Shown here: in pieces, positions 7,488 to 41,262 of the stretch
Layout of the letters: each line of letters opens with the position of its first letter
How positions within the stretch are numbered: the first letter of the stretch is position 1
Assembly: GCA_025463165.1 (NCBI GenBank)
Contig: JAOBAU010000175.1
Coordinates: 1 to 43,590, forward strand
Direction: 5' to 3'
DNA from: Acidobacteriota bacterium
Lineage (GTDB): Bacteria > Acidobacteriota > Thermoanaerobaculia > Gp7-AA8
DNA: 43,590 nt
Notes under the pieces: generated by a model
Seen by the model: only the letters and a program-made list of their open reading frames with translations
What the model was told of the DNA's origin: nothing
Databases searched by the model: none
Made by a program: the position numbers and the translations under genes

Positions 7488-10400
7488 TTAACGTCCGACG
7501 AATCCGCTCGCCACCGACACGCGTCGTCCCGCCAGCGCCGCGGCAACCTGCAGCGCACTGGTGTCGTCGAGCTCCGCGATCGGGCGGAGGCAATCGCCTT
7601 CCATCACGGAGACCGCGATGCCGTCGCGGAAGGCGATGCGCGTCGACGGAATGGCTCGGATTCGTTCCGCGGTCGTGAGGATGCCGATGAGGTTGAGCGG
7701 ATCGGCGGCGCTGATGACGACGAGCTGTCCATCGGGCGCGGTGCGGCGAATCTCGCGCAGCTTCTCGACGGCGTCCGGCAGCGCGAACTGTTCGCCCGAC
7801 ATGCCGGCGACGAAACGGCCGCCGCGAATCTCGCCGCGCGCTTCGAGCCGGCGATAGATACGCGCCAGCTCGCGCCACGGTGCGGCGTTCGGCTCGCGCG
7901 TGAGCAGGCGGCGGAAGATGACGCCGTAGCGTTGCAGCAGCACGCGCGCCTGCGCTTCGACGGCGGCATCGCGCGCGGTCGTTGATTCGTCGGTCAGCAG
8001 CGACCAGCGTCCGGAGAGATTCGTTCGCGCACGCTTGTCGACGAGACCGCGCAATCCGGCGAATCCATCGGATGCGATGAGGCCGGCGGAGACGAGCTCG
8101 CCGAGTGCGCGCTGCAGCTCTTCGTCGGCGATGCCGAGGTCGCGAGGAAAGGACGCGCCGCGCGTGCGGAGCGTTTCGATGATGCGCTTTGCAGTGTCAG
8201 AGAGCGTCGTTTCGAGATCGGCCGGTTCGCGCATGGCGCGCCATGACGGCGCGTGATCGCGAAGGAAGAGTGCGACCGGCGTGGCGCCGACCGGCGAGCC
8301 GCTCGTGGTCGCGGGCGAGAGCCGCGCCCAGCCGACTTCGCCGGCGAGACAGAGCGCGTCGAGCATCGATGCGTCGTAGCGATCCATGCGCAGCGGCAGC
8401 ACGGAACGTTCCCACGCGTTTGCGGCGAGCTCGAAGCCATCGAGCTTCGCGACGATTGACTGCAGTCCGTCGGTGCCTGACAAACGGGCGGATGGTGCAA
8501 CGTGTTGCCACGCGAAAAGGAAGCGGATGAAGTCGGCGGAGCCGACCGGCTCGATCTCGGCGCGCAGGCGATTGAGCGTATAGCGGTGGATGCGCGCGAG
8601 GAGCCGACGATCGCACCATTGCAGCGGTTTCAGTTTCACTGTGGAGGCGGCCGCTCCGGCCGCCACGGCGGGCGAAGCGCCCGCCGCCACAACATTCTCG
8701 AAATGCCCGCGCAACACTGCACCATCTGTTTCGAGTGCGATGAGCGCGGCTTCCGCGTCGCGTTCCGTGATGGCGAGCGATGTTGCAAGCGACTGCGCGG
8801 AGGTCGGTCCGATGAACGAGAGCCGTCCGCGCAGCAGTTCGACGATTGCTTCTTCGCGTGTCCAGACGCGCGTCATTCGCGAAGGTGGCGGTGCGATCGG
8901 CGGTATGACTTCGGGATGCACGGCGACGAACTCGGGGATTCGTTCGGCAGCGACGATCACGAGCCTTCTCCCTCCGGGAGAAGGTGCCCGAAGGGCGGAT
9001 GAGGGGCGGGTTAATGCGATGACGTTCGTGCCTGGCCCCTCACCCGGCGCTGGCGCGCCACCCTCTCCCGGAGGGAGAGGGATGAGGGCGGCGCGGTTGC
9101 GAGCGATTAGCGCTTCGAGAAACGGCGTCTCCACCTCCTCATCCGTGAGAAAGCCGAACGTCAGCAGCACGTCGTGGAGCTCGTCGGCGTCGCGCGGATC
9201 GGGACGCTCTTCGTCGCGAACTCTCTCGATCGCTGCGACGTCGAGTGCGCCGAGGCCATCGTTCGAGCTCGCGTCGCCGGCGCGGCGCGTCCAGACGGCC
9301 TGCGTGCGGCGCTCTTCGAGCGGCGCGTCGTCGAGGAATGCGTACGGCTTCGCGTTGAGGATGTCGTGCGCGAGTGGCGACGGCTCGGTGGTGTCGCGCG
9401 CGATGCAGCGAATCTCGCCGGCGTGAATGCGCGTCAGGATGGCGGCGAGCGATTCGAAATCCATCGCCTCTTCGAGGCAGTCGCGCACCGCCTGATTGAC
9501 GAGCGGATGGTCCGGTAGTTGACGATCGCCGGCGATGTTCTCGAAGCAGGCCGCGGCGTCGGGGAAGACGGCTGCCATCAGATCGTCGGCCATTGTTCGC
9601 TGCAGCTGCGGCGGGACTTTTCGGCCGCCGCGATTTCGCGGCACGGCGAGTGAGATGGTCGTGTTCCAGCGCCAGCGCGTCTGAAAGACCGGCGCGTCGA
9701 GGAACGCCTGCACGAGCACGTCGCGGCTGGTGGCCGGATGCAGATAGCGGAAGACGTCGGCGAGCGGGAACGAGTGCTGCGGTCCGAGCGAGAGGAGCAG
9801 CGCGTCTTCCGTCGCCGCCGCCTGCAGCTCGAAGTTGAACTGGCGGCAGAAACGTTTGCGCAGCGCCAGTCCCCAGGCCTTGTTGACGCGACTGCCGAAC
9901 GGCGCGTGCAGCACGAGCTGCATGCCGCCCGATTCGTCGAAGAAGCGTTCGAGGACGAGCGTTTCCTGCGTCGGGAGGACGCCGAGCGCGAGGCGCGATT
10001 CGGTCAGGTAGTTGACGATCTCCAGCGCCGCGTTTTCCGGGATGCCGGTTTCGGCGATGAGCCAGGCGACCGGATCGGTTTCTGTGAGCAGCTCGAAATC
10101 GGCGCGAAGTGCGCTCACCGCGAGCGACAGCTCATCGCTCCGCGCCGGCGCTTCGCCGAGCCAGAACGGGATCGTCGGCGGCGCGCCGTGCGCGTCGGCG
10201 ACGCGCACCACTCCACTGCCGACTTGCGTGATCAGCCACGAGGCATTGCCGAGCTGGAAGATGTCGCCGGCGTTGCTCTCGATTGCGAAGTCTTCGTTGA
10301 GCGTGCCGATGAACGTCTCTTCTCCTTCGAGAATGACGCGGTAGTCGGCGATCTCGGGGATGGCGCCGCCCGACGTGATGGCGAGCATGCGCGCGCCGCG

Positions 10401-11849
10401 GCGGCCTTTCACGCGCCCGTTCACTTCATCCCGATGGACGAGCGCGGCGCGGCGGCCGCGTTTGGTCGCGAAGCCGTCGGAGATCATGGTCAACACCTTG
10501 TCGAAATCGGCGCGCGCGAGGTTGCGATACGGCCACGCACGTCGAACGAGTGCGAAGAGCGTCTCTTCGTCGTAATCGCAGCAGGCCGATTCGGCGACGA
10601 GCTGCTGCGCGAGGACGTCGAGCGGCGCATCGTGCGTGACGATCCGATCGAGCTCGCCGCGACGAACCGCGCGCAGGAGCGCCGCGCATTCGACGAGGTC
10701 GTCGCGCGAGACCGGAAAGATGCGGCCTTTCGGCAAGCCGAAAACGGTGTGGCCGGAACGGCCAACGCGCTGCAGCAGCGTCGCGATGCGATGCGGCGAG
10801 CCGAGCTGGCAGACGAGATCGACGTGACCGATGTCGATGCCGAGCTCCAGCGACGCGGTGGCGACGAGCGCTTTCAGCTGACCGTTCTTCAGGCGTGATT
10901 CGGCGTTGAGGCGATTCTCTTTCGACAGGCTGCCGTGATGCGCGGTGACGGCGTCTTCGCCGAGGCGATCGGAGAGATGGCGAGCGACCCGCTCGGCCAT
11001 CCGGCGCGTGTTGACGAAGACGAGCGTGGTGCGGTGCTGTTCGATCAGCTCCGTGAGGCGGTTGTAATAGTCCTCCCACACCTCGTGCGACATGACCGTC
11101 TCGAGTTGCGAGAGCGGCGTCTCGAGTGTGAGATCCATGGCGCGGCGATGTCCTTCGTTGACGATTGCGCAATCGGAGGCGCCGCCGGTGAGATAGCGCG
11201 CGACCTCTTCGATCGGCTTCTGCGTTGCTGATAACCCGAGGCGGAGCAGCGGCTGTTCTGCCACCTCGGCGAGACGTTCGAGCGTCAGCGAAAGGTGCGC
11301 ACCGCGGCGCGTGCCGATGACGGCGTGAATCTCGTCGACGATGACGGTGCAAACGGTGCGCAGCATTTCGCGGCTGCGTTCGGCCGTGAGCAGGAGATAG
11401 AGCGATTCGGGTGTGGTGACGAGGATGTGCGGCGGCGTGCGGAGCATCGCGGCGCGCTCTGATGATGTGGTGTCGCCGGTCCTCACCGCGGCCGTGATTC
11501 GCGGCGCGACAACTCCCATCTCCTCCGCGACACGTCGAAGTCCGATGCGCGGCTCGGCGAGGTTCTTGTGGATGTCGGCGCTGAGTGCTTTCAACGGCGA
11601 GACGTAAATGACGCGCACTTCGTCAGGAAGAGGAGCGGTGAGTCCTTCCTGCAGCAGATCGTCGAGTGCGGTGAGGAATGCCGCGAGCGTTTTGCCTGAG
11701 CCGGTCGGCGCGGCGATGAGCGTGTGGCGTCGCTCGGCGATGGCCGCCCAACCCTGTTCCTGGGCGGCGGTCGGTTCACCGAGCGTTTCGTGGAACCAGC
11801 GTTTTGTTACGGGATGAAAACCAACCTGGGACATAGGGCTAACCGGCAT
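7488..11849 (-). CDS. lhr: Lhr-like DEAD/DEAH helicase with two repeat-derived inserts
   Basis: This 1453-residue superfamily 2 helicase of the Lhr (large helicase-related) type is expected to move 3'-5' on DNA and act in repair. Motif I is APTGSGKT (47-54), motif II DEIH (172-175), motif III SAT (207-209) and motif VI QRVGRSGH (360-367). Past the helicase core it has the Lhr winged-helix and C-terminal regions, including WCDRRLLARIHRYTLNRL and FLFAWQHVAP. Two stretches do not look like Lhr: about residues 923-962, rich in Pro/Gly, and about 1053-1070, rich in Ala. They coincide exactly with palindromic repeats at 8964-9081 and 8640-8691, both read through in frame. An alternative start is the ATG at 11834; a TATAGT box lies just 3 nt upstream of 11849, which slightly favours the shorter form. 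Confidence 0.95.
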   Translation of the reverse strand: MPVSPMSQVGFHPVTKRWFHETLGEPTAAQEQGWAAIAERRHTLIAAPTGSGKTLAAFLTALDDLLQEGLTAPLPDEVRVIYVSPLKALSADIHKNLAEPRIGLRRVAEEMGVVAPRITAAVRTGDTTSSERAAMLRTPPHILVTTPESLYLLLTAERSREMLRTVCTVIVDEIHAVIGTRRGAHLSLTLERLAEVAEQPLLRLGLSATQKPIEEVARYLTGGASDCAIVNEGHRRAMDLTLETPLSQLETVMSHEVWEDYYNRLTELIEQHRTTLVFVNTRRMAERVARHLSDRLGEDAVTAHHGSLSKENRLNAESRLKNGQLKALVATASLELGIDIGHVDLVCQLGSPHRIATLLQRVGRSGHTVFGLPKGRIFPVSRDDLVECAALLRAVRRGELDRIVTHDAPLDVLAQQLVAESACCDYDEETLFALVRRAWPYRNLARADFDKVLTMISDGFATKRGRRAALVHRDEVNGRVKGRRGARMLAITSGGAIPEIADYRVILEGEETFIGTLNEDFAIESNAGDIFQLGNASWLITQVGSGVVRVADAHGAPPTIPFWLGEAPARSDELSLAVSALRADFELLTETDPVAWLIAETGIPENAALEIVNYLTESRLALGVLPTQETLVLERFFDESGGMQLVLHAPFGSRVNKAWGLALRKRFCRQFNFELQAAATEDALLLSLGPQHSFPLADVFRYLHPATSRDVLVQAFLDAPVFQTRWRWNTTISLAVPRNRGGRKVPPQLQRTMADDLMAAVFPDAAACFENIAGDRQLPDHPLVNQAVRDCLEEAMDFESLAAILTRIHAGEIRCIARDTTEPSPLAHDILNAKPYAFLDDAPLEERRTQAVWTRRAGDASSNDGLGALDVAAIERVRDEERPDPRDADELHDVLLTFGFLTDEEVETPFLEALIARNRAALIPLPPGEGGAPAPGEGPGTNVIALTRPSSALRAPSPGGRRLVIVAAERIPEFVAVHPEVIPPIAPPPSRMTRVWTREEAIVELLRGRLSFIGPTSAQSLATSLAITERDAEAALIALETDGAVLRGHFENVVAAGASPAVAAGAAASTVKLKPLQWCDRRLLARIHRYTLNRLRAEIEPVGSADFIRFLFAWQHVAPSARLSGTDGLQSIVAKLDGFELAANAWERSVLPLRMDRYDASMLDALCLAGEVGWARLSPATTSGSPVGATPVALFLRDHAPSWRAMREPADLETTLSDTAKRIIETLRTRGASFPRDLGIADEELQRALGELVSAGLIASDGFAGLRGLVDKRARTNLSGRWSLLTDESTTARDAAVEAQARVLLQRYGVIFRRLLTREPNAAPWRELARIYRRLEARGEIRGGRFVAGMSGEQFALPDAVEKLREIRRTAPDGQLVVISAADPLNLIGILTTAERIRAIPSTRIAFRDGIAVSVMEGDCLRPIAELDDTSALQVAAALAGRRVSVASGFVGR
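8640..8691. repeat. Family B palindromic repeat, copy 1 (inside lhr)
   Basis: This 52-bp element has ends TGTGG and CCACA and contains two adjacent hairpins, GGCGGCCGCTCCGGCCGCC and GGCGGGCGAAGCGCCCGCC. By my alignment it matches the copy at 32407-32458 at 44 of 52 positions with no gaps. It lies in the lhr reading frame and encodes the Ala-rich stretch VAAGASPAVAAGAAAS just before the conserved WCDRRLLARIHR motif. The flanking bases are AC on both sides, a possible 2-bp duplication, which would make 54 bp and keep the frame. Confidence 0.85.
8964..9081. repeat. Family A palindromic repeat, copy 1 (inside lhr)
   Basis: This 118-bp unit consists of two head-to-head arms of about 45 bp. The outer ends are hairpins CCTTCTCCC-TCC-GGGAGAAGG and CCCTCTCC-CGGA-GGGAGAGGG, followed inward by a smaller hairpin and a GGATGAGGGGC / GCCCCTCACCC match. 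It is open in the lhr frame and encodes about 39 residues starting PLPPGEGGAPAPGEG and ending RAPSPGGRR. Flanks are ACGAG and ATGAG, a possible imperfect 5-bp duplication. Confidence 0.9.
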
Positions 11850-24926: not shown

Positions 24927-25035
24927 CCTTCTCCCTCCGGGAGAAGGCGCCCGAAGGGCGGATGAGGGGCGAGTTCCCGCCGCGATCACGCCCCTCACCC
25001 GGCGCTACGCGCCACCCTCTCCCGGAGGGAGAGGG
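24927..25035. repeat. Family A palindromic repeat, copy 2 (between convergent genes)
   Basis: This 109-bp unit has the same plan as copy 1: CCTTCTCCCTCCGGGAGAAGG at one end, CCCTCTCCCGGAGGGAGAGGG at the other, head-to-head GGATGAGGGGC / GCCCCTCACCC arms inside and a short unrelated centre. AT flanks both ends and may belong to the element. It starts one base after the amidase stop and contains the stop codon of the convergent saccharopine-dehydrogenase-like gene. Its hairpins could end transcription from both sides. Confidence 0.9.
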
Positions 25036-26033
25036 ATCTCGTTCACGAAGTTCATCCCGAACGCGCTCGATGGCGTAAATGCGCCGCCGCGCGGTGCGCC
25101 GAGCACCCGTTTAACCGCACTCACCGCGGCAACCGCCGTGAATGCGTAGCCTTCCGGCGTCTCGAGCGTCATCGAGCGCGTCTCGCTTCCGTTCGACACT
25201 TCACCCCACAGATACACACGTCCGCTCGCGCGTTTAGCTGCATCGGGTCCGCTGCGGCGATCGGCGAATTTCTGCAGCAGTCGGCGGATCGGTTTCGGCG
25301 AGAGCAGCGGCAGGAACGCGCGCATACGTCGCGCTCGCGCGATCGCCTTCCGCGGCGTCGCGAGGTAGACGCGAATGTTCGGGATGCCGGTCGAATGAAA
25401 CGCGGTCGAGACGTCGCCCCACGGAATCGTCATCGTGCTTTTCGTTCCGCCGGAGAACGGGATGTCGCGCGCATCGAACGCGACCGGCACGCGAACGATC
25501 CGTCCGTTGCGGCGGATCGCGCCACCTTCACCGATCGATTCGATCATCGTCTTCATCGTGCCGCGGCTCAGTTCTCCGCCTTTCGGATGGAACGCCAGTA
25601 CGAGCTCGGTCGCGTCCGGCATTTGTGCGGCGAGCTGTGCGGCGAGGCAATCGGTTGGCACGACGTCGAAGCCGACGCCGGGCACGAGCATCACGTTGCG
25701 GCGCCGCGCTTCGTCATCGAGCGCGAAGATCGCTTCGAAGACGGAGATCTCGCCGGTGATGTCGAGGTAATGCACGCCGGCATCGAGACAGGCGCGCACC
25801 ATCGGCGCCGATGTCTGCACGAACGGTCCCGCGCAATGCAGCACGAGCGACACCCCGTCGAGCTGCGGCTTGTCGAGTGCGAACGCTCGCGATTCAAGTC
25901 CGAGCTCGCGCGCCAGCGGCGCGATTTTCTCCGCGCTGCGGCCGGCGAGAATCGGAGTCTCGCCGCGCTTTACTGCTTCGCGCGCGATCAACTCGCCGGT
26001 GTAACCGTTCGCGCCATAGATCAGCCATTTCAT
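25005..26033 (-). CDS. Saccharopine-dehydrogenase-like oxidoreductase
   Basis: The 342-residue protein begins with a Rossmann fold, MKWLIYGANGYTGELIA, with the nucleotide-binding G7-x-x-G10-x-x-G13 motif, and continues with the pattern of the saccharopine dehydrogenase family that includes trans-acting enoyl reductases and short saccharopine-dehydrogenase-like oxidoreductases (VVLHCAGPFVQTSAPMVRA, then DITGEI and VPGVGFDVVPTDCLAA). It probably reduces or oxidises a lipid-like or amino-acid substrate with NAD(P)H, but no substrate can be assigned. The start at 26033 rather than 26138 is set by the Rossmann strand and a TAGAAT box 10 nt upstream. The last nine residues (PLPPGEGGA) and the stop codon come from a family A repeat, so the original C-terminus has been replaced or extended. 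Confidence 0.88.
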   Translation of the reverse strand: MKWLIYGANGYTGELIAREAVKRGETPILAGRSAEKIAPLARELGLESRAFALDKPQLDGVSLVLHCAGPFVQTSAPMVRACLDAGVHYLDITGEISVFEAIFALDDEARRRNVMLVPGVGFDVVPTDCLAAQLAAQMPDATELVLAFHPKGGELSRGTMKTMIESIGEGGAIRRNGRIVRVPVAFDARDIPFSGGTKSTMTIPWGDVSTAFHSTGIPNIRVYLATPRKAIARARRMRAFLPLLSPKPIRRLLQKFADRRSGPDAAKRASGRVYLWGEVSNGSETRSMTLETPEGYAFTAVAAVSAVKRVLGAPRGGAFTPSSAFGMNFVNEIPLPPGEGGA

Positions 26034-26043
26034 CGTGCCGGCG

Positions 26044-26049
26044 ATTCTA
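26044..26049 (-). promoter_or_regulatory. Putative -10 box for the minus-strand gene at 26033
   Basis: Read on the minus strand this is TAGAAT, ending 10 nt before the ATG at 26033. No ribosome binding site lies between, so the leader would be a few nucleotides at most. Confidence 0.45.
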
Positions 26050-26078
26050 TGAGGGAATTGCGGCGGCGCGCGCCGAGG

Positions 26079-26084
26079 TATAAG
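26079..26084 (+). promoter_or_regulatory. Putative -10 box, leaderless glnS start
   Basis: TATAAG ends 7 nt before the ATG at 26092; a TTGCGG sequence lies 15 bp further upstream as a weak -35. No Shine-Dalgarno is present. Confidence 0.45.
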
Positions 26085-26091
26085 GCAGACC

Positions 26092-27774
<1,683 letters not shown>

Positions 27775-29926: not shown

Positions 29927-31891
29927 ATGTCGCGCGACGCGAAGATCGCCCTCATCCTCGCCGCGGCGGCCTTCCTCCTTTTCGCCGACGTCATCTTCAC
30001 CGGCAGCGGTTTTTACTATCGCGATGTGTTGCGCGATTACCTCCCGTCGCGTCTCGTGCTGCGCGACGCGGTCATGCACGGCGAGTTTCCGTTCTGGAAT
30101 CGCTTCTACTCTGCCGGGCAACCGCTCGCTGCGAATCCCGGCTTCCAGGCGTTTTATCCGCTGACGTGGCTCGTGCTGTTCGGCATTCGCGGATTTCAAC
30201 TCGGCATCGTGCTGCACCTCGCCATCGCGGCGGCGGGGATGTACCTCTTCCTCCGCTCGCTCGCGTTGCGCGAAGAGTCATCGCTGTTCGGCGCGATCGC
30301 CTTCGCGTTCGGCGGCTGCATGCTGTCGCTCACGAACCTCGTGCCGTTCCTGACGTCGATCGTCTGGTGGCCGGTGATTCTCTGCTGCGCGCGGCGGCGG
30401 AACTTCATCGGCTTCACGCTGTCGCTGGCGATGTTGCTGCTCGCCGCGGAGCAGTCAGCGATTCTGCAAACGTCGCTCCTCGTGCTGATCGCGATCGCGA
30501 TGAGCAGCGAGCGCCGCAAGCTGCTCATCGGCTGCGTCGCAGCGTTCGCGATCGCATCGGTGCAACTCATCCCGGCGCTCGATCTGAAGCGCGACGTCGC
30601 GCGCTCGCAGCCGATCGCATTCGATGACGCGATGGCGTGGAGCATGCCGCTCGATCGGCCGCTCGAGCTCTTCTACGCGCACGCCTTCGGAACGATCACC
30701 GACGATGGCGCGGAGTTCACGGGAGCACGGAGATACACGCCGCCGCGCGTGCCGCTCATCCTCTCGATTTACTGCGGAGTGATCACCGCGCTGCTCGCGG
30801 TTGCCGGCATCGTTCATCGCGTTCGCGGCTGGGCGATCGCACTCGCGCTGATGGCGTTGTCGTTCGTCGTCGCTGCCGGCGCGCAGACGCCGCTCGGACG
30901 CGCGCTTTACGACGCGGGACTCTTTCGCTCGATTCGCTATCCGGAAAAGTTCGTGCTCGGCGGCGTCTTCGCGATGATCGTCCTCGCGGCGATCACGTTC
31001 GATGCGATGGTGCGCGATCGCCGCATCGCCATCGCGCTGATCGCGATCACGGCGCTGGAGCTCGCGTATCACTCGTTCGAGGTCGCGCCGCGCAAGCCGT
31101 CACGGTTCTTCGACGCGCCGCCGATCGTGAACGCGCTGCGCGGCGAGGATCGCGTCTTCCATCTCGGCGCGCTGCCCGGCAGCGGCATGCGTTATCCGGC
31201 CGGCGATCAGACGTACGAAGCGCTGCGCGCCACGCTCGTCCCGTTCACTCCGGCGTCATACGGAATCGCCACCGTCTACGAGCCGGACATCAATCTGACG
31301 ACGCTGCTGCCGACCGCGGAAGTGATGCGCAGCGTCTGGGAGCTTCGCGCGCCGCTACCACTTCTTCGGATGGGCAACGTCGGCCGCGTGATCGTTCCCG
31401 CCTCTGCCGGCGGCGTGCGCGTGCAGCGCATCGAAACGCTTCCGCGCTACTGGTTCGCCGACCGTCTCGTCGTCGCGCGCAATCACGAAGAGATCGCGCG
31501 CGCGCTCAACACCATCACGCCGCACACCGCACTCGTCGACGTCGCGTCGTTCGTTCCTGCATGTGCGGAACTGCTCAGCATCAACGAAGCGCGCAACGGT
31601 GCAACGCTTCGCGTCCGCGCATCGGCGGCGTCGTTTCTCGTCGCCGGCGTCACGCGACATCGCTACTGGCACATCGCCATCGACGGCCGCGAAGTCGACG
31701 CCGTCGCCGCGAACGTCGCGTATCAGGGGATCGTCGTTCCGGCCGGCGAACACGTCATCACGATGCGCTACAGCAACCCGCTGATCGTCGGATTCGGCAT
31801 CGTCAGTCTTCTCGCGCTTGCCGCTGCATTGTTATGGCGGTACCCTTCACACAAATCTTCACTGGATCAGACGGGAGGGGCGGATGGGTGA
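29927..31891 (+). CDS. YfhO-like polytopic membrane protein
   Basis: The 654-residue protein opens with a membrane helix (KIALILAAAAFLLFADVIF) followed by a conserved loop FYYRDVLRDYLPSRLVLRDA and FPFWNRFYSAGQPLAANPG, the signature of the YfhO/GT-C-like group. About eleven more hydrophobic segments follow up to residue 390, then a soluble domain (about 400-620) and one last helix (LIVGFGIVSLLALAAALLW). Relatives are thought to act in glycosylation of cell-envelope polymers with lipid-linked sugars; the substrate here is unknown. The ATG at 29927 is chosen because the first helix starts there, although the frame is open upstream. Its 3' end overlaps the next gene by 8 bp, so translation is coupled. 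Confidence 0.85.
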   Translation: MSRDAKIALILAAAAFLLFADVIFTGSGFYYRDVLRDYLPSRLVLRDAVMHGEFPFWNRFYSAGQPLAANPGFQAFYPLTWLVLFGIRGFQLGIVLHLAIAAAGMYLFLRSLALREESSLFGAIAFAFGGCMLSLTNLVPFLTSIVWWPVILCCARRRNFIGFTLSLAMLLLAAEQSAILQTSLLVLIAIAMSSERRKLLIGCVAAFAIASVQLIPALDLKRDVARSQPIAFDDAMAWSMPLDRPLELFYAHAFGTITDDGAEFTGARRYTPPRVPLILSIYCGVITALLAVAGIVHRVRGWAIALALMALSFVVAAGAQTPLGRALYDAGLFRSIRYPEKFVLGGVFAMIVLAAITFDAMVRDRRIAIALIAITALELAYHSFEVAPRKPSRFFDAPPIVNALRGEDRVFHLGALPGSGMRYPAGDQTYEALRATLVPFTPASYGIATVYEPDINLTTLLPTAEVMRSVWELRAPLPLLRMGNVGRVIVPASAGGVRVQRIETLPRYWFADRLVVARNHEEIARALNTITPHTALVDVASFVPACAELLSINEARNGATLRVRASAASFLVAGVTRHRYWHIAIDGREVDAVAANVAYQGIVVPAGEHVITMRYSNPLIVGFGIVSLLALAAALLWRYPSHKSSLDQTGGADG

Positions 31892-32396
31892 GATCAAGCT
31901 GTTCCAGATCTGCTTTGAGGGCGACCTCACTGTGGAAGTGTCGCACGCGATGCGACGCCTCGGTGCGGAGCCGAATTTCGATCAGAGCTGGCAGATATGG
32001 CTTCCCGAAGGACGCCACGCCGCACCGCTGGTCCGCTATCTCCGCTCACGACTCGGCGAAGATGCGCGACTGCTCGTCGCATGTGCGCAGTTCACGATCG
32101 CGCGCGACTTCCTCCTGATCCGTCACAGTCAAACTCCCGGCGCTGACTACAGCGAACTGCACGACGCCATCGCGCGACTCGGCACCGTCGTCGAGCTGCC
32201 GTTCGAATCGACGTTCATCGTGCAGTCCGCCGATCCGACCGACGTGCAGACGCTCGGCCTCGCCTTCGGCGAGCTTTGCCCCGACGACTCGCTGATGGTC
32301 CTCGGCGTCAGTCACGACTGGGCGTACAGCGACGCCGGCATCAGCCGGATGCACGTCGCCGACGAACAGGTCGAGCTGCAGTTCCGCGCGTTCTAA
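31884..32396 (+). CDS. Two-domain Cas2/SinR-like ferredoxin-fold protein, unknown role
   Basis: This 170-residue protein seems to be an internal duplication. Residues 5-69 and 74-144 share the order strand, helix with (A)xRLG, strand ending in (S)xxIW or (S)TFIV, helix, acidic turn (EDARLLVACAQ / DDSLMVLGVSH). The second half, with PGADYSELHDAIARLG and ESTFIVQSADPTD, closely follows the pattern of SinR-like proteins related to Cas2 and VapD. No catalytic residues can be assigned and no CRISPR array is in the window. GGAGGGG just upstream of ATG 31884 and the 8-bp overlap with the YfhO gene show translational coupling. A family B repeat follows 10 bp after its stop. I infer the fold; the function is unknown. 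Confidence 0.7.
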   Translation: MGEIKLFQICFEGDLTVEVSHAMRRLGAEPNFDQSWQIWLPEGRHAAPLVRYLRSRLGEDARLLVACAQFTIARDFLLIRHSQTPGADYSELHDAIARLGTVVELPFESTFIVQSADPTDVQTLGLAFGELCPDDSLMVLGVSHDWAYSDAGISRMHVADEQVELQFRAF

Positions 32397-32406
32397 GAAA
32401 AAAAGG

Positions 32407-32458
32407 TGTGGGGTTGGCCGCTTCGGCCGACCTGGCGGGCGAAGCGCCCGCCACCACA
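32407..32458. repeat. Family B palindromic repeat, copy 2 (between convergent genes)
   Basis: This 52-bp element with TGTGG/CCACA ends holds the hairpins TTGGCCGCTTCGGCCGA and GGCGGGCGAAGCGCCCGCC. It is the same length as the copy inside lhr and matches it at 44 of 52 positions. Here it lies between two convergent stop codons, where its hairpins could serve as a terminator; an A-run precedes it at 32398-32404, which would read as a T-run after the hairpins on the minus strand. Confidence 0.85.
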
Positions 32459-32469
32459 TTGAATTCTGA

Positions 32470-33537
32470 TCACGTCAGCGCCGCGAGATTCCGCGCCAGC
32501 GCCGGCGCCATCAGCAGCAGCGACGCGATTCGCCGCGACACGCTCGAGAACTGCGACACCTCGTCACGCAGCAGCGCGCGGCCGATCGCGGTCGCGCTTC
32601 GATCGCGCAGCCAGCGCGGCAGCACCGGCGACTCGCCATACGAATAGTTCCAGACGTGCTGCGGGACGTTGCGCCAGAACGCTTTGTCGTTGAGATAGAC
32701 GTCGCATGTGCGCGCACCGAGGAGGTCGATGACCTCGCCGGTCGTCATGCCGTTCGCGCGCGCGTGATCGCTGAGCGCGACCAGCTCTTCATCATCGTAT
32801 TCGCGCACGACGATGCGTCCTTCGCCATCCCACCAGTCGCTCAGCGCGAGCACGGAGCCGCGCAACATCCGCGCTTCTTTCCCGACGCGCGTCGCGGTGC
32901 CGATCCAGCGCAGCTCCTGATCGTCGCGCCGCAGCGCGAGCGTCGACGGCTCGCCGTACAGCGACGCGATGCGATAGCCGAGCACCGCCGAGAAACGGAT
33001 CAGCTCCGCGGAGTCGGGAAGTGGCACCGACATGATCGCGTGACCATCAGCGGCGAGCACCGCGACCGTGTGATGGAAGAGTTCCGTCTCACCGCAGCCA
33101 AGGCGTACAGCGTGCTGGCGAGCTTCGCGGGTCAGGTTCGGAGTCCGGCCGCTTGCGGAGACGCAGTGCAGCGGGAAGAGTCGAAGATGGCCGCCGCGAA
33201 CGGCATTGCGCGCGATGAAGGGCGCCTGGATTCCGTGCGCATCGATCGCCAGCCAGTCGGTCGCGCCGGCCAGCTGCTCGCGATAGACGCGCTCGCGCTC
33301 GTCGTTCGCGTAGCACCAGCGAACGTCGAACGGCTGTTCGTTGCAGGCGATGACGTACGACTCGTCGAAATGAAAGCGAAGCGTTTCGTGATGCGGCCGC
33401 CGCGCCTCGTGGCGCATCCGGCGAATGAGGCGCGGCCGATCGGCATCGGCGCGATCGGGCGAGGTTCCGAGACCGGTGAACGAAGTGCTGAAAAGGTCCG
33501 CAAGGGTGGTGGTGCCGGTTTTCTGCCGTGTGGGCAT
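32470..33537 (-). CDS. Orphan type ISP restriction-enzyme C-terminal (specificity-like) domain protein
   Basis: The 355-residue protein resembles only the last third of type ISP (LlaBIII-like) restriction-modification enzymes. The C-terminal block YLNDKAFWRNVPQHVWNYSY then G-x-x-PVLPRWLRDR (281-313), followed by a helix ending RRIASLLLMAPAL, is the family's end. QPFDVRWCYAND (68-79) matches the RPFDTRW segment, and LFPLHCVSASGRTPNL (120-135) and FHHTVAVL (154-161) also fit. There is no nuclease, helicase or methyltransferase part in this protein or beside it. The frame is intact and GGAG stands 6 nt before the ATG at 33537, so it looks maintained, not decayed. It might bind DNA specifically; that is inference. 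A start at 33579 is possible. Confidence 0.65.
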   Translation of the reverse strand: MPTRQKTGTTTLADLFSTSFTGLGTSPDRADADRPRLIRRMRHEARRPHHETLRFHFDESYVIACNEQPFDVRWCYANDERERVYREQLAGATDWLAIDAHGIQAPFIARNAVRGGHLRLFPLHCVSASGRTPNLTREARQHAVRLGCGETELFHHTVAVLAADGHAIMSVPLPDSAELIRFSAVLGYRIASLYGEPSTLALRRDDQELRWIGTATRVGKEARMLRGSVLALSDWWDGEGRIVVREYDDEELVALSDHARANGMTTGEVIDLLGARTCDVYLNDKAFWRNVPQHVWNYSYGESPVLPRWLRDRSATAIGRALLRDEVSQFSSVSRRIASLLLMAPALARNLAALT

Positions 33538-33603
33538 CCTGATCTCCGGGAGTCGCTGCCTCGCGCGGACCTCGCGCAAAGCGTCAGCGGACGGATGGAG
33601 TGA

Positions 33604-37035: not shown

Positions 37036-38202
37036 ATGGCCATTCCGTTCAAATACAACATCGGCAATCTCACCAGCCGCCGTGTCTCCACGCTGCTGAC
37101 GATCGTCGGCATCGGCGTCGTCAACGCCGTGCTCGTTTCCATGCTCGCACTCTGGAACGGCGTGAAGCACACGACGTCGACTTCCGGCTCGGCCGCCAAT
37201 CTCATCGTGCTGCGCGACGGCTCGGAGACAGAGCTCTCCAGCTGGTTCGAGAAGGGAAAAGAGAATGTGATCCGCACGCTGCCCGGCATCGCCAAACGCG
37301 CGAATGGCGAGCCGCTCGTTTCGCCGGAGCTGATGATGCTGTTCAAGCTGCCGCGCAAAGGCGATGCGAAAGAATCGAACGTCGAAGTGCGCGCGCTGCG
37401 GCCGGTCGGCTTCGAGATGCGTCCGAACGTGAAGATGGTTGAAGGCCGCGTCTTCAAGCCGGGGCTGAATGAGGTCATCGTCGCGAAACGGCTGCACGAT
37501 CGTTTCGCCGGCATGGATGTCGGCGACAGCTTCAAGTTCGGGTCGACGGTGTGGAACGTCGTCGGTGTGTTCGACGCCGGCGGTACCGCGTTCGATTCCG
37601 AGATCTGGGCCGATCTCGATTACTTCGCCTCCGCGCGCAAACGGACGTCGACGTATTCGTCCATTCTCGTGCAGCCGGTCGACGCGGCGGCGCTGAAGGC
37701 GGTGAAGGAAACGGTGGAGAACGACAACCGGCTGAAGCTGATGGCGAAGACGGAGCAGAAGTATTACGCGGAGCAGACCAGCGGCCTGTTCGGCGTGATC
37801 ATCCTCGTCGGTTTCGTGACGATCTTCATGGTCGTCGGCGCGATCCTCGGCACGATGAACACGATGTTCACCGCCGTCGCCTCGCGGAAGCGCGAGCTCG
37901 CCACGATGCGTGCGCTCGGCTTCAAGCGCCGCGCGATCCTCGCGTCGATGGTGATCGAAAGCGCCATCGTCTCGTTCCTCGGCGGCATCGCCGGCTTGAT
38001 CATCGCGTGGCCGATCCGCTACGTGACCACCGGCACGACGAACTTCCGCACGTTCTCGGAGGTGGTGTTCAACTTCCGCATCGACTGGAAGCTCGCCGCG
38101 ACGACGCTGACGATCGCCGTGGTCGCCGGCGTCATCGGCGGACTCGCCCCCGCGATCAGCGCCGCCTGGATGCCGATCACCAGAGCGTTGCGCGAGATCT
38201 GA
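37036..38202 (+). CDS. FtsX/MacB-type ABC permease, second
   Basis: The 388-residue protein repeats the layout of its neighbour: N-terminal helix (VSTLLTIVGIGVVNAVLVSML), a periplasmic domain (about 45-245) with KMVEGRVFKPGLNEVIV, and three C-terminal helices with the conserved ASRKRELATMRALGF coupling helix near 285. AAGGAG precedes the ATG by 5 nt. Export substrate unknown; relatives move peptides, lipids, glycolipids or macrolides. It is the last gene of the operon, followed 14 bp later by a family A repeat that probably ends the transcript. Confidence 0.94.
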   Translation: MAIPFKYNIGNLTSRRVSTLLTIVGIGVVNAVLVSMLALWNGVKHTTSTSGSAANLIVLRDGSETELSSWFEKGKENVIRTLPGIAKRANGEPLVSPELMMLFKLPRKGDAKESNVEVRALRPVGFEMRPNVKMVEGRVFKPGLNEVIVAKRLHDRFAGMDVGDSFKFGSTVWNVVGVFDAGGTAFDSEIWADLDYFASARKRTSTYSSILVQPVDAAALKAVKETVENDNRLKLMAKTEQKYYAEQTSGLFGVIILVGFVTIFMVVGAILGTMNTMFTAVASRKRELATMRALGFKRRAILASMVIESAIVSFLGGIAGLIIAWPIRYVTTGTTNFRTFSEVVFNFRIDWKLAATTLTIAVVAGVIGGLAPAISAAWMPITRALREI

Positions 38203-38216
38203 GCTTCGCGCGTCAT

Positions 38217-38325
38217 CCTTCTCCCTCCGGGAGAAGGTGGCGCGAAGCGCCGGATGAGGGGCGACGTGGATCCGAAAACACGCCCCTCACCCGACCTTCG
38301 GCCACCCTCTCCCGGAGGGAGAGGG
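38217..38325. repeat. Family A palindromic repeat, copy 3 (between convergent genes)
   Basis: This 109-bp unit is the same length as copy 2. Its ends match the other copies (CCTTCTCCCTCCGGGAGAAGG and CCCTCTCCCGGAGGGAGAGGG); the inner small hairpin is GGCGCGAAGCGCC. AT flanks it on both sides, as in copy 2. It lies between the exporter operon and a convergent membrane-protein gene whose stop is 5 bp beyond the repeat. Confidence 0.9.
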
Positions 38326-38329
38326 ATTT

Positions 38330-39202
38330 TCATTGCCACCACTCCGGCAGCCGCGCGCGAACATCCATCCTGCTGACGATGCCGGACTCGGATCCGATCA
38401 CGACGAGTCGCTTCTCGATCACGATCGGTTCGCCGCCGAAGACGAAGAACGCAGCGCCAAGGAACAGCAGCGCGATGATCGGCGTCGCGGCCGCGGCTTC
38501 GCGCAACTCGACGCCATCGAGCTTCTCGTAGCGCGCGGGTGGACGTCGCGCGATCGCCACGAAGAACGTAAGCGCCGCAAACGCGGCGGCGGCGATCCAG
38601 CCTTCGACGTACTCGTTGCGATACGCGAGGGCGCCGAGGATTGCGGAGGCGGGGACGACGCGAATCAGCCAGATGAGTACGCGGCGGCCGGGACGCTGCA
38701 ACTCGATGACGTTCGCGAGATCGTTCGCGATCCAGCCCTCGGCGCGGATCACGAAGAAGATCGCGACGATCAGCACGGCCGCGGCGACGTAGAGGTTCGC
38801 GGCGATCACGATCGGCCACACCGTGAACAGCATGATCATCTGCACGAGTGACATCGCGAACATCCGCCGGCCGAGCATCGGCGCGAGCGGCCAGAAGTAG
38901 ATGAGCATCGCCAGCAGCAGCGCGCCGCCGGCGAGGAACGGCATCGCGCGCGTTCGTTCCTCGGCGGCGATGCTCGCGTAACCGCTCAGCCGCTCGATTC
39001 CGGCGAGCCGCTGCCACGGCGCGCCGTGTATCAGCCAGGCGCGGCGAAGGCCGGAATTGCGCAGCACGAGCATGTCGGCGACGCCGAGAAAAAGCGCGGC
39101 GAGCACCGCGGCGATGAGCAGCTGGCCGAGCGAAGTGAGGGCGATTCGCCAGTACGCCGGCTTCGGCCGGAACCGAAAGTCAAAATCTCCGTATACCGAC
39201 AT
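38330..39202 (-). CDS. Polytopic membrane protein, unknown
   Basis: The 290-residue protein has about seven to eight hydrophobic helices: near 19-40 (ALTSLGQLLIAAVLAALFLG), 85-100, 109-130, 130-150, 168-185, 190-210 and 225-245, followed by a short soluble tail with RLVVIGSESGIVSRMDVRA. I recognise no family; the layout is loosely like Yip1-domain proteins but no motif confirms it. The start at 39202 leaves a hydrophilic N-terminus MSVYGDFDFRFRPKPAYW before the first helix; the frame stays open to 39307 but that part crosses the divergent phosphatase gene. It is 68 bp from the phosphatase start, head to head. Confidence 0.75.
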   Translation of the reverse strand: MSVYGDFDFRFRPKPAYWRIALTSLGQLLIAAVLAALFLGVADMLVLRNSGLRRAWLIHGAPWQRLAGIERLSGYASIAAEERTRAMPFLAGGALLLAMLIYFWPLAPMLGRRMFAMSLVQMIMLFTVWPIVIAANLYVAAAVLIVAIFFVIRAEGWIANDLANVIELQRPGRRVLIWLIRVVPASAILGALAYRNEYVEGWIAAAAFAALTFFVAIARRPPARYEKLDGVELREAAAATPIIALLFLGAAFFVFGGEPIVIEKRLVVIGSESGIVSRMDVRARLPEWWQ

Positions 39203-39270
39203 GGTCAGGGCGGCGCGGCCGCTGCGATATCCTGAGGCTACACGCGCGCAGTCCGGACGACAACGACAAG

Positions 39271-41262
39271 ATGACCATGCTTCCGACGACTCCTCCGCCG
39301 CCACCACCGCGGCGGACCCATCGCGCGCTGATCGTGTGGCTGGCGTCGTTCGCCGTCATGATCTCCGCGCAGTACCTCGACTCTCTCCTGCCGCGCTCTT
39401 TCGCGCACGCGTTCCTCGGCTTCGTCACCTTCTGCTCGTCGCTCGTCTTCATCGCGCTGACGATCTACTGGTTCGCGGTCGCCATTCGCTGGATGCTGCG
39501 CAAGCTTTTCTGGCGCGTCGGACGACGACTCTTTCTCAGCTACGTGCTCATCGGCGTGCTGCCGTTCATCCTGATGTCGATCCTGCTGCTCGCCGTCGGC
39601 TACATGGGCGCCGGCGTCATGGCGCAAGCCGCGCTGCGCGGCGAACGGCAGGCCAGCCTCGGGCAGATGGAATCGTGGAGCCTCGAGTACGGCCTGACCG
39701 GACGCAAACCGATCGACGGACTGAAGTCGCTCGAGATCTACGACACCGCGGAGGCAAGCGGCGCGCAACTGCCGGCGTGGCTGAAGAAAGCGAGCTTCAG
39801 CGGGATGGTTGGCCGCAACGACGGCGCGCTGCTCGTCGTGTCGCGGCAGATGCAGAACGCCGACGCGCTGCGAACGATCGTCTTCGTGCAGCCGCTCGAC
39901 GCGTCGTGGGCCGCGCAACTCGCCGAGAAGAGCGGAATGCAAATCCGCACCGCGTACGACCACGGCGCCAAAGGAATGCGCAAGGGCGCGACCGAAGGAG
40001 TCAGCGACGGACGGCGCACGCGGCGCCAAAATCACATCAACCTCTCCGTCGATGATGACGATGGCGACGATCTGCAGAAACTTTTCATGCGTTCCGTCGG
40101 ACGAAAAATCGTCTGGGGCGACATCACCGCGCTGACCGACTGGACCAGCGGCGACACATCGGAAGAGCTGCAGGTCGTGACGCTGATCGCCATCCCGGTC
40201 ACGAACCTCTTCCAGTTCTACTTCGGCTCGTCCGGCCGCTACTTCGAAACGGTCGTCAACGTGATCCTCGCGCTGACCATCGCGCTGTTCATCATCTACC
40301 TGATGGCGGCGCTCTTCGCCGCGGTGCTGATCTTCTCGATCACGCGCGCCGTGAATCGAATCGAGAAAGGAACGAAAGCGGTCGAGCGCGGCGACTTCTC
40401 GTATCGCATCGCCATGAAACCGACGAACCAGCTCGGCGAGATGGCGCAGTCATTCGATCGAATGACGGAGTCGCTCAGCTCACTGCTCGTTACCGTCGCC
40501 GAGAAAGAGCGACTGCAGAGCGAGATCGAGATCGCGGCGACGATCCAGCGCAACCTGCTGCCGAGCGAAGGGCCGAAGTTCCGCGGCGTTTCGTTCTCCG
40601 CGCACTTCGAGCCGACGGCGTCGATCGGCGGCGATTACTACGACGTCTTCAATCTCGACAAGACGCGCCTCGCCGTCGCGATCGGCGACGTTTCCGGCCA
40701 CGGACTCTCGACCGGCATCGTGATGGCGATGGTCAAGGCCGCGATGACGACGCTCGTCGAAGAAGGGGCGGACGAGCGTTCGCTGTTCCGCAGACTGAAC
40801 GAGCTCGTGCATCGCTCGACGGAACGCCGCGCATTCATGACGCTCGGCTTCACAATCTTCGATCTCGAGCACTCCACGATCCGCCACACGAATGCCGGCC
40901 ATCTCTATCCGTACCTGCTGCGGAAGAACGCCGCGCCCTACTCGATCGAATCGCCGTCGCTGCCGCTCGGCGTCCGCAGCGACATCGTCACGCAGACGGT
41001 CGAACTGAAGCTGGAAGAGGGCGACGCGATCGTCTATCTGTCGGATGGAATCGTCGAAGCGCAGGATGCGAACGGCGATCCGCTCGGATTCGATCACCTC
41101 GAAGCGATCCTCGCGCAGCAGACCGATCGCTCACCGAGCACGATTCGCGATGCAATCCTGGATGCGGTCGCGCGTCACGCGGGCACCCGCCCGGCCGATG
41201 ACGACCGTACGATCATGGTGCTGCGGTTCGATAATTTCTCGACGGTCGCTACCGCGCCGTAG
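39271..41262 (+). CDS. Membrane HAMP-SpoIIE (PP2C-type) phosphatase
   Basis: The 663-residue protein has a Pro-rich start, three N-terminal membrane helices (about 19-37, 45-72 and 88-112), an extracytoplasmic region with a poly-Asp patch (260-267), a fourth helix (about 329-357), a HAMP segment (358-412) with RIEKGTKAVERGDFSYRI, and a C-terminal SpoIIE/RsbU phosphatase domain. The metal ligands are visible: D455 in GGDYYD, D473 in IGDVSGHG and D597 in YLSDGIVEA, and the end reads DDRTIMVLRF. It should dephosphorylate an anti-sigma antagonist or similar switch protein in response to an outside signal, but no anti-sigma or STAS gene lies next to it. The first gene of its unit, it lacks a Shine-Dalgarno. 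Confidence 0.93.
   Translation: MTMLPTTPPPPPPRRTHRALIVWLASFAVMISAQYLDSLLPRSFAHAFLGFVTFCSSLVFIALTIYWFAVAIRWMLRKLFWRVGRRLFLSYVLIGVLPFILMSILLLAVGYMGAGVMAQAALRGERQASLGQMESWSLEYGLTGRKPIDGLKSLEIYDTAEASGAQLPAWLKKASFSGMVGRNDGALLVVSRQMQNADALRTIVFVQPLDASWAAQLAEKSGMQIRTAYDHGAKGMRKGATEGVSDGRRTRRQNHINLSVDDDDGDDLQKLFMRSVGRKIVWGDITALTDWTSGDTSEELQVVTLIAIPVTNLFQFYFGSSGRYFETVVNVILALTIALFIIYLMAALFAAVLIFSITRAVNRIEKGTKAVERGDFSYRIAMKPTNQLGEMAQSFDRMTESLSSLLVTVAEKERLQSEIEIAATIQRNLLPSEGPKFRGVSFSAHFEPTASIGGDYYDVFNLDKTRLAVAIGDVSGHGLSTGIVMAMVKAAMTTLVEEGADERSLFRRLNELVHRSTERRAFMTLGFTIFDLEHSTIRHTNAGHLYPYLLRKNAAPYSIESPSLPLGVRSDIVTQTVELKLEEGDAIVYLSDGIVEAQDANGDPLGFDHLEAILAQQTDRSPSTIRDAILDAVARHAGTRPADDDRTIMVLRFDNFSTVATAP

Follow-up and report, generated by a model that had tools for sequence, protein, structure and literature searches.

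Unrelated palindromic repeats in frame within one Lhr helicase gene of an acidobacterium, and within the same Lhr loops in other bacteria

The window, by which we mean the whole stretch of 43,590 nucleotides that was analysed, belongs to a 5.1 Mb assembly in 471 contigs, which is of Acidobacteriota type and whose nearest named relatives are Acidobacteriota. It carries a gene for the large helicase-related protein Lhr and several copies of two families of palindromic repeats (A and B), one of each family being located inside this gene. The features are as follows:

7488..11849, reverse strand: lhr, large helicase-related protein, 1,453 amino acids, frame intact; phmmer match to M. smegmatis Lhr (7lhl) with E = 2e-198
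8640..8691, no strand assigned: family B copy in lhr, 52 bp; ends TGTGG...CCACA enclosing hairpins 8646-8664 and 8667-8685; 18 codons
8964..9081, no strand assigned: family A copy in lhr, a doublet of hairpins 8964-8984 and 9061-9081; 40 codons touched
24927..25035, no strand assigned: family A copy flanked by convergent ORFs and overlapping one of them, ORF 25005-26138 (reverse strand), at its 3' end
32407..32458, no strand assigned: family B copy between putative convergent genes 31818-32396 (forward) and 32470-33579 (reverse)
38217..38325, no strand assigned: family A copy between putative convergent genes 37036-38202 (forward) and 38330-39307 (reverse)

The lhr reading frame is open throughout its 1,453 codons, and the two repeats, which are 272 bp apart, are both in the lhr frame and correspond by coordinate arithmetic to Lhr residues 923–962 (A) and 1053–1070 (B). 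An earlier reading of this DNA, made from its sequence only, had described both repeats as open in the lhr frame, and the coordinates, the ORF and the genome-wide counts given below confirm that two unrelated dispersed palindromic repeats sit in frame in one Lhr gene. The contrary outcome which it had considered, a broken frame, is not seen in the assembly, where the ORF is read intact, and translation of the inserts in the host organism would be expected. The same reading had placed both families outside genes as well, and this is borne out by the A copy at 38217-38325, although the frames beside it were picked by codon usage and other mechanical ORFs overlap it, and by the B copy at 32407-32458, the right-hand frame of which has a codon-usage score slightly below the threshold. 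The 3' end of ORF 25005-26138 falls within the neighboring A copy, so that its last codons are repeat-derived.

Such an arrangement could also arise if repeats had joined unrelated contigs during assembly, or if the gene were a dead one. The assembly is indeed fragmented, and the Lhr frame is broken in another species (locus L126 of the comparison set). However, the sequence on either side aligns collinearly with the same orthologues, the frame is open over its full length, and Dyella and Rhodanobacter strains from independent assemblies have inserts in the same loops, for which reasons we consider an artefact or a pseudogene to be extremely improbable.

Both families are dispersed over the window genome. 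With up to 3 mismatches, the A hairpin has 74 forward and 67 reverse matches, and the B hairpin, with up to 2 mismatches, has 44 and 45 on the two strands (the number of elements is lower than these match counts, as hairpins that are nearly self-complementary are often scored on both strands). The counts are far above those of the reversed-pattern controls (0 and 0 for A, 1 and 1 for B), which means that the repeats are not due to chance. Flanks were examined for 53 A and 68 B places among the matches listed, that is, for all but four of the listed places (A: C44, C126; B: C331, C402). A frame test based on codon usage called 4 of the 47 scorable A places and 7 of the 60 scorable B places in frame, 14 of the 121 places being unscored because of their proximity to the ends of stretches; this is a rough estimate from a weak test, which recovers the true frame for 170 out of 217 windows from its own training genes and misses both Lhr copies. 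The inverted repeats TGTGG...CCACA are present at both ends of 24 of the 27 B doublets listed (counted by eye). At L042 (G000:C128, 1479-1878), seven B hairpins are arrayed within 400 bp, in units about 100–120 bp apart.

In an alignment of close Lhr orthologues (after which the partial gene L092 was dropped from the Lhr rows), no insert is present at the A site of L094, L097, L108, L121 and L066, and most rows have a short B site. The set holds no congener of the window genome, whose own empty site is therefore deduced from other genera. In two pairs of congeners, the A site is found both empty and filled: it is empty in L108 and holds an A-like repeat in L103, and it is empty in L094 and holds a repeat of a different family, C, in L095. 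Near residue 225, an A-like repeat is present in L095 and none in L094. Family C is itself dispersed, the genome of L095 having 92 matches to it and that of the window 14, and L098 carries near residue 908 a repeat of yet another family, matched 93 times in the L098 genome (both strands counted in each case). The A-like, C and L098-family inserts found among these relatives indicate that unrelated palindromes entered the same few Lhr loops. The gaps in the orthologues, for which the sequence-only reading had proposed to look, support its placing of the repeats at variable linkers of Lhr, and its view that the mobile unit is the DNA and not the peptide gains from the dispersed copies and from the differing families and frames at one site. 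One ORF at L045 (G000:C159), with a provisional start and no Pfam match, apparently contains, besides a B repeat, a C-type one close to its start.

A wider alignment comprised 83 Lhr genes, namely 80 homologues, that of the window, L091 and L066, the genes at L126 and L137 being without a single open frame (the former, from a gp6 acidobacterium, contains several inserts). The 83 genes have 95 inserts of at least 12 residues, of which 23 show a folding z-score below −3, as compared with 3 of 238 control segments, and such an insert is borne by 19 of the genes; the inserts were trimmed for this test, which overlooks some obvious palindromes, among them the family C repeat of L095 (z −1.8). The Lhr proteins of Dyella and Rhodanobacter carry the TM repeat described in PMC4666352 at about residues 225 and 928, in the same loops as the window-type inserts, and several of these Lhr inserts have its three blocks with both loops of 1–6 nt and at most 3 substitutions. 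Near residue 225, the strict TM motif is in codon phase 0 in L131, L135, L139, L143 and L170 and in phase 2 in L155 and L171, so that the peptides differ. Whether the two phases at one site come from separate insertions or from one insertion followed by compensated shifts, they imply that what arrived was DNA and not peptide. In three Dyella genomes, an exact, narrower TM pattern occurs 121, 22 and 26 times (0 for the reversed control), and by position at least 3 of the 121, 2 of the 22 and 0 of the 26 fall in Lhr, an enrichment which is biased since these genomes were chosen for having TM in Lhr. Of 30 TM places sampled in these genomes, those called in frame were Lhr and one other. The lhr gene of Dyella acidisoli (L139) has five A-type hairpin matches at several positions, which is the maximum among the genes scanned.

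That the same Lhr loops were hit by unrelated families in two phyla raises the question of whether insertion is targeted, i.e. whether the repeats, or the enzyme moving them, prefer sites in lhr and in other repair genes. At 39 proteobacterial loci, A-type hairpins number 26 in about 170 kb of Lhr sequence against 9 in 335.3 kb of flanks, although shared descent inflates the difference; by locus, such a hairpin occurs in Lhr at 12, in the flanks at 7 and in both at 3. On the other hand, the A-type match is absent from Lhr at the gp6 (8), gp4 (8), Gemmatimonadetes (9) and Latescibacterota (2) loci. Inverted repeats in general have about the same density in Lhr as in the flanks, being denser in 5 of 10 groups and sparser in 5 of 10, and palindromic and non-palindromic inserts share alignment positions, as is expected from tolerance alone.

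The position of the two inserts in the protein was considered on an AlphaFold model of Lhr residues 845–1300, built with 41 of the 83 Lhr rows as input (mean pLDDT 85.8). Insert A corresponds to model residues 79–118, between predicted strands 76–80 and 119–123, with 10-residue mean pLDDT values of 56–77, and insert B to residues 209–226, between predicted strands 201–204 and 233–236, with values of 51–62 in the middle of the insert. The closest structural match of the model is the C-terminal domain of M. smegmatis Lhr (7lhl_B; Z 18.1, rmsd 17.9 over 347 residues), followed by AlkX/YcaQ (Z 10.2, rmsd 5.6 over 170 residues) and AlkZ (Z 9.1, rmsd 3.4 over 169 residues), while winged-helix regulators are found at Z 7.4 or less, a range in which the tool warns of a mere common arrangement; the comparison tests mainly model residues 63–245. 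Judging from the predicted strand order, both inserts would be at the tips of beta-hairpins which form the wing tips of successive winged-helix domains.

The inserts of the Dyella and Rhodanobacter type also show what becomes of a repeat after its arrival. The hairpin has disappeared from L142, L146 and L160 (z 0.4, 0.4 and −0.8, respectively), in which a related insert is still in frame. A comparison of L135 with L139 gives 10/8/14 differences at the first, second and third codon positions of the insert (51 codons) and 45/18/200 at those of the core (537 codons). Five further pairs with at least 41 insert codons show the same tendency, a seventh pair having 12 insert codons only; the least clear pair is L135/L146, where the insert has 18/10/28 and hence a third-position excess. 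The frame is kept, and by these substitution patterns the amino acids of the insert appear to be largely free, although the third-position excess in some pairs suggests that the peptide may be not wholly so. One could suppose that the inserted peptides are kept because they are useful to Lhr, for instance by altering the contact of the wing with DNA, as the inserts are at predicted wing tips of DNA-binding-type domains and the frame has been kept over the splits between Dyella species. We find this very improbable, since differing families and reading frames put unrelated peptides in the same loop, insert amino-acid positions change much faster than those of the core, and many Lhr orthologues have no insert.

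In-frame repeats are not limited to Lhr, and the search of the genome for repeats inside ORFs that the sequence-only reading had called for yielded several hosts among the listed places. Family A is in frame in SufD (ORF residues 84–104), in an ArsA-type ATPase, between its two halves (337–377), and in a second Lhr of the window genome, the gene for which is truncated by a contig end and in which the repeat is near the equivalent of residue 225, as aligned by eye. Family B is in frame in DnaE2 (residues 492–507), in a carboxyltransferase-domain protein (129–150, inside a single Pfam match at 28–255) and in a nuclease with weak AddB-like matches (501–507, inside a match below the cut-off at 415–804). 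Less certain hosts, in which no family match spans the insert, include several membrane proteins, a histidine kinase and a peptidase S41. The linker of DnaE2 holds B in the window genome and another long insert in G013, and none so long in the other 10 of the 12 sequences aligned; these were taken from 12 of 18 matching genomes, and several of the other six show split matches at the same linker. In Dyella (L261), a TM doublet is in frame after the lipoyl-type domain of a putative dihydrolipoyl dehydrogenase, named from its sequence. The occurrence of A near the same position in the second Lhr, and of repeats in DnaE2 and in the nuclease, which are akin to the repair genes listed in PMC3733652, could again be taken to point to targeted sites.

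The survival of the frame can be approached through the copies not called in frame. The A doublets among them are open in at least 4 of the 6 frames in 28 of 35 cases, and the B doublets in all 6 frames in 23 of 29. Element lengths divided by three leave remainders of 0, 1 and 2 in 10, 18 and 11 cases for A and in 11, 17 and 7 cases for B, i.e. all three classes are represented, so the element itself is no guarantee of the frame and selection after insertion is the likely explanation for its survival in Lhr. Because linker length differs among genera, the net insert length in Lhr can be given approximately and not to the base. It had been suggested that duplications of the target, of 5 bp for A and 2 bp for B, preserved the frame, but flank matches of this kind are absent from the other copies. 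For A, a match at 4 of 5 positions is found in 1 of 25 full copies, which is the Lhr copy itself, and at 5 of 5 in none; for B, a 2-bp match is found in 1 of 39 copies, with 2.4 expected, and a 3-bp match in 1, with 0.6 expected. Target duplications are therefore rejected for both families. AT is present just outside the A hairpin in 22 (left) and 21 (right) of 25 copies, and the right-hand ATGAG that had been read as a flank is thus probably in part element and not target.

No transposase linked to A or B was found in the window genome. The GTAG and CGTC tags are present within 8 nt of A hairpins at 2 and 10 of 188 ends (background 0 and 13), and of B hairpins at 2 and 11 of 256 ends (background 1 and 17). 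There is one PF01797 match in this genome, a Y1-type transposase ORF at L174 (G000:C254, 1351-2433), which is flanked by 27-bp inverted repeats and whose 3.3 kb locus contains no A or B hairpin. A RAYT was rejected as the mover of A and B, the sole Y1 transposase being unlinked to either and having inverted repeats of its own.

Taken together, we find it highly probable that the palindromes insert broadly as DNA and that selection keeps the in-frame copies in those Lhr loops which tolerate changes in length. A and B would be short dispersed palindromic repeats of a REP- or MITE-like kind that entered lhr as DNA. Having few stops in most frames, they could be tolerated wherever they add a whole number of codons at a place with room for extra length. 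The two Lhr copies would be of this sort, lengthening the tips of beta-hairpins by flexible loops of about 40 (A) and 18 (B) residues. Insertion itself, which we infer to be random rather than targeted, would probably be broad, with purifying selection sparing the survivors that are in frame and in a loop; over time the palindrome would decay and the frame would stay, turning the repeat into an ordinary linker peptide. Targeted insertion seems unlikely to us in comparison, as no target duplication was seen for A (5 bp) or B (2–3 bp), in addition to the evidence from densities and positions given above. Equally doubtful is the idea that Lhr is a preferred recipient of hairpin- or triplex-forming repeats at its wing-tip loops, be it through the mode of insertion or because altered wings would help cells to cope with such DNA. 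Since unrelated repeats have also used these loops in other bacteria, hairpin repeats seem to be one way in which new protein linkers arise, and lhr amounts to a natural replicated experiment in one gene, in which the same loops have varied repeats and are found empty, freshly filled or with decayed copies that are now plain linkers. This opens a direct test of the passage from selfish DNA to protein linkers, as well as of the suggestion made in PMC3733652 that DNA-repair genes are favored targets.

Several known systems resemble the repeats described here. The sequence-only reading had named the Rickettsia palindromic elements as precedent, and rightly so, as these are reported to be inserted in frame in unrelated genes and also elsewhere in the genome (PMC10969869). 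They share with A and B the presence of in-frame palindromic repeats within genes, but their host belongs to another phylum, the likeness drawn is one of description, and in the present case unrelated families are found in one gene and, between genomes, in one loop. To treat them as the one known precedent, and two unrelated families in one gene as a clear new case, is an overstatement in view of the REPs of PMC3733652, for which two insertions in one gene are on record. That paper describes intragenic REPs in several species, as monomers or dimers and in many replication and repair genes including DnaE2, with double insertions in uvrA and uvrB, and differing REPs at approximately the same recB site in two Xanthomonas species. 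In-frame repeats and DnaE2 as a host are common to these GTAG/CGTC REPs and to A and B, which however are without a GTAG or CGTC tag, and Lhr is not among the intragenic REP hosts named in the sections of that paper that were consulted. As for MITEs, family B shares with them its terminal inverted repeats but is without a target-site duplication at 2–3 bp. ERIC-type small repeats are reported to be fused in frame in C-terminal regions, none of them within conserved superfamily domains (PMC2759123), whereas the in-frame repeats of the present study are inside the C-terminal domain of Lhr, in its loops.

There is also a likeness in plan to the TM repeat, which forms an intrastrand triplex, is described as always intergenic in E. 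coli MG1655 and has no mobility genes near its copies according to PMC4666352; the same hairpin is reported for Enterobacter sp. 638 (PMC2869309). Family A has the same CCCTCTCCC-loop-GGGAGAGGG-loop-GG(G/A)TGAGGG plan together with an inverted doublet. With at most 3 substitutions, 29 of the 52 A loci in the window genome fit the plan with both loops of 1–6 nt, and 51 of the 52 with a second loop of 7–22 nt; the best fit of most A copies has a longer second loop, and a triplex would be a prediction from the motif. In contrast to the intergenic copies of E. coli MG1655, the copies described here include ones within coding frames. Literature searches, including those for Lhr with palindromes and for Acidobacteria with REPs, returned no report of palindromic repeats in lhr, nor a description of the loops of one gene being re-used by unrelated families in two phyla. 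The event is of a familiar kind, met here in a new setting, and it takes coding palindromes beyond Rickettsia and the tagged REPs, to untagged repeats, TM included, in the Acidobacteriota and the Gammaproteobacteria.
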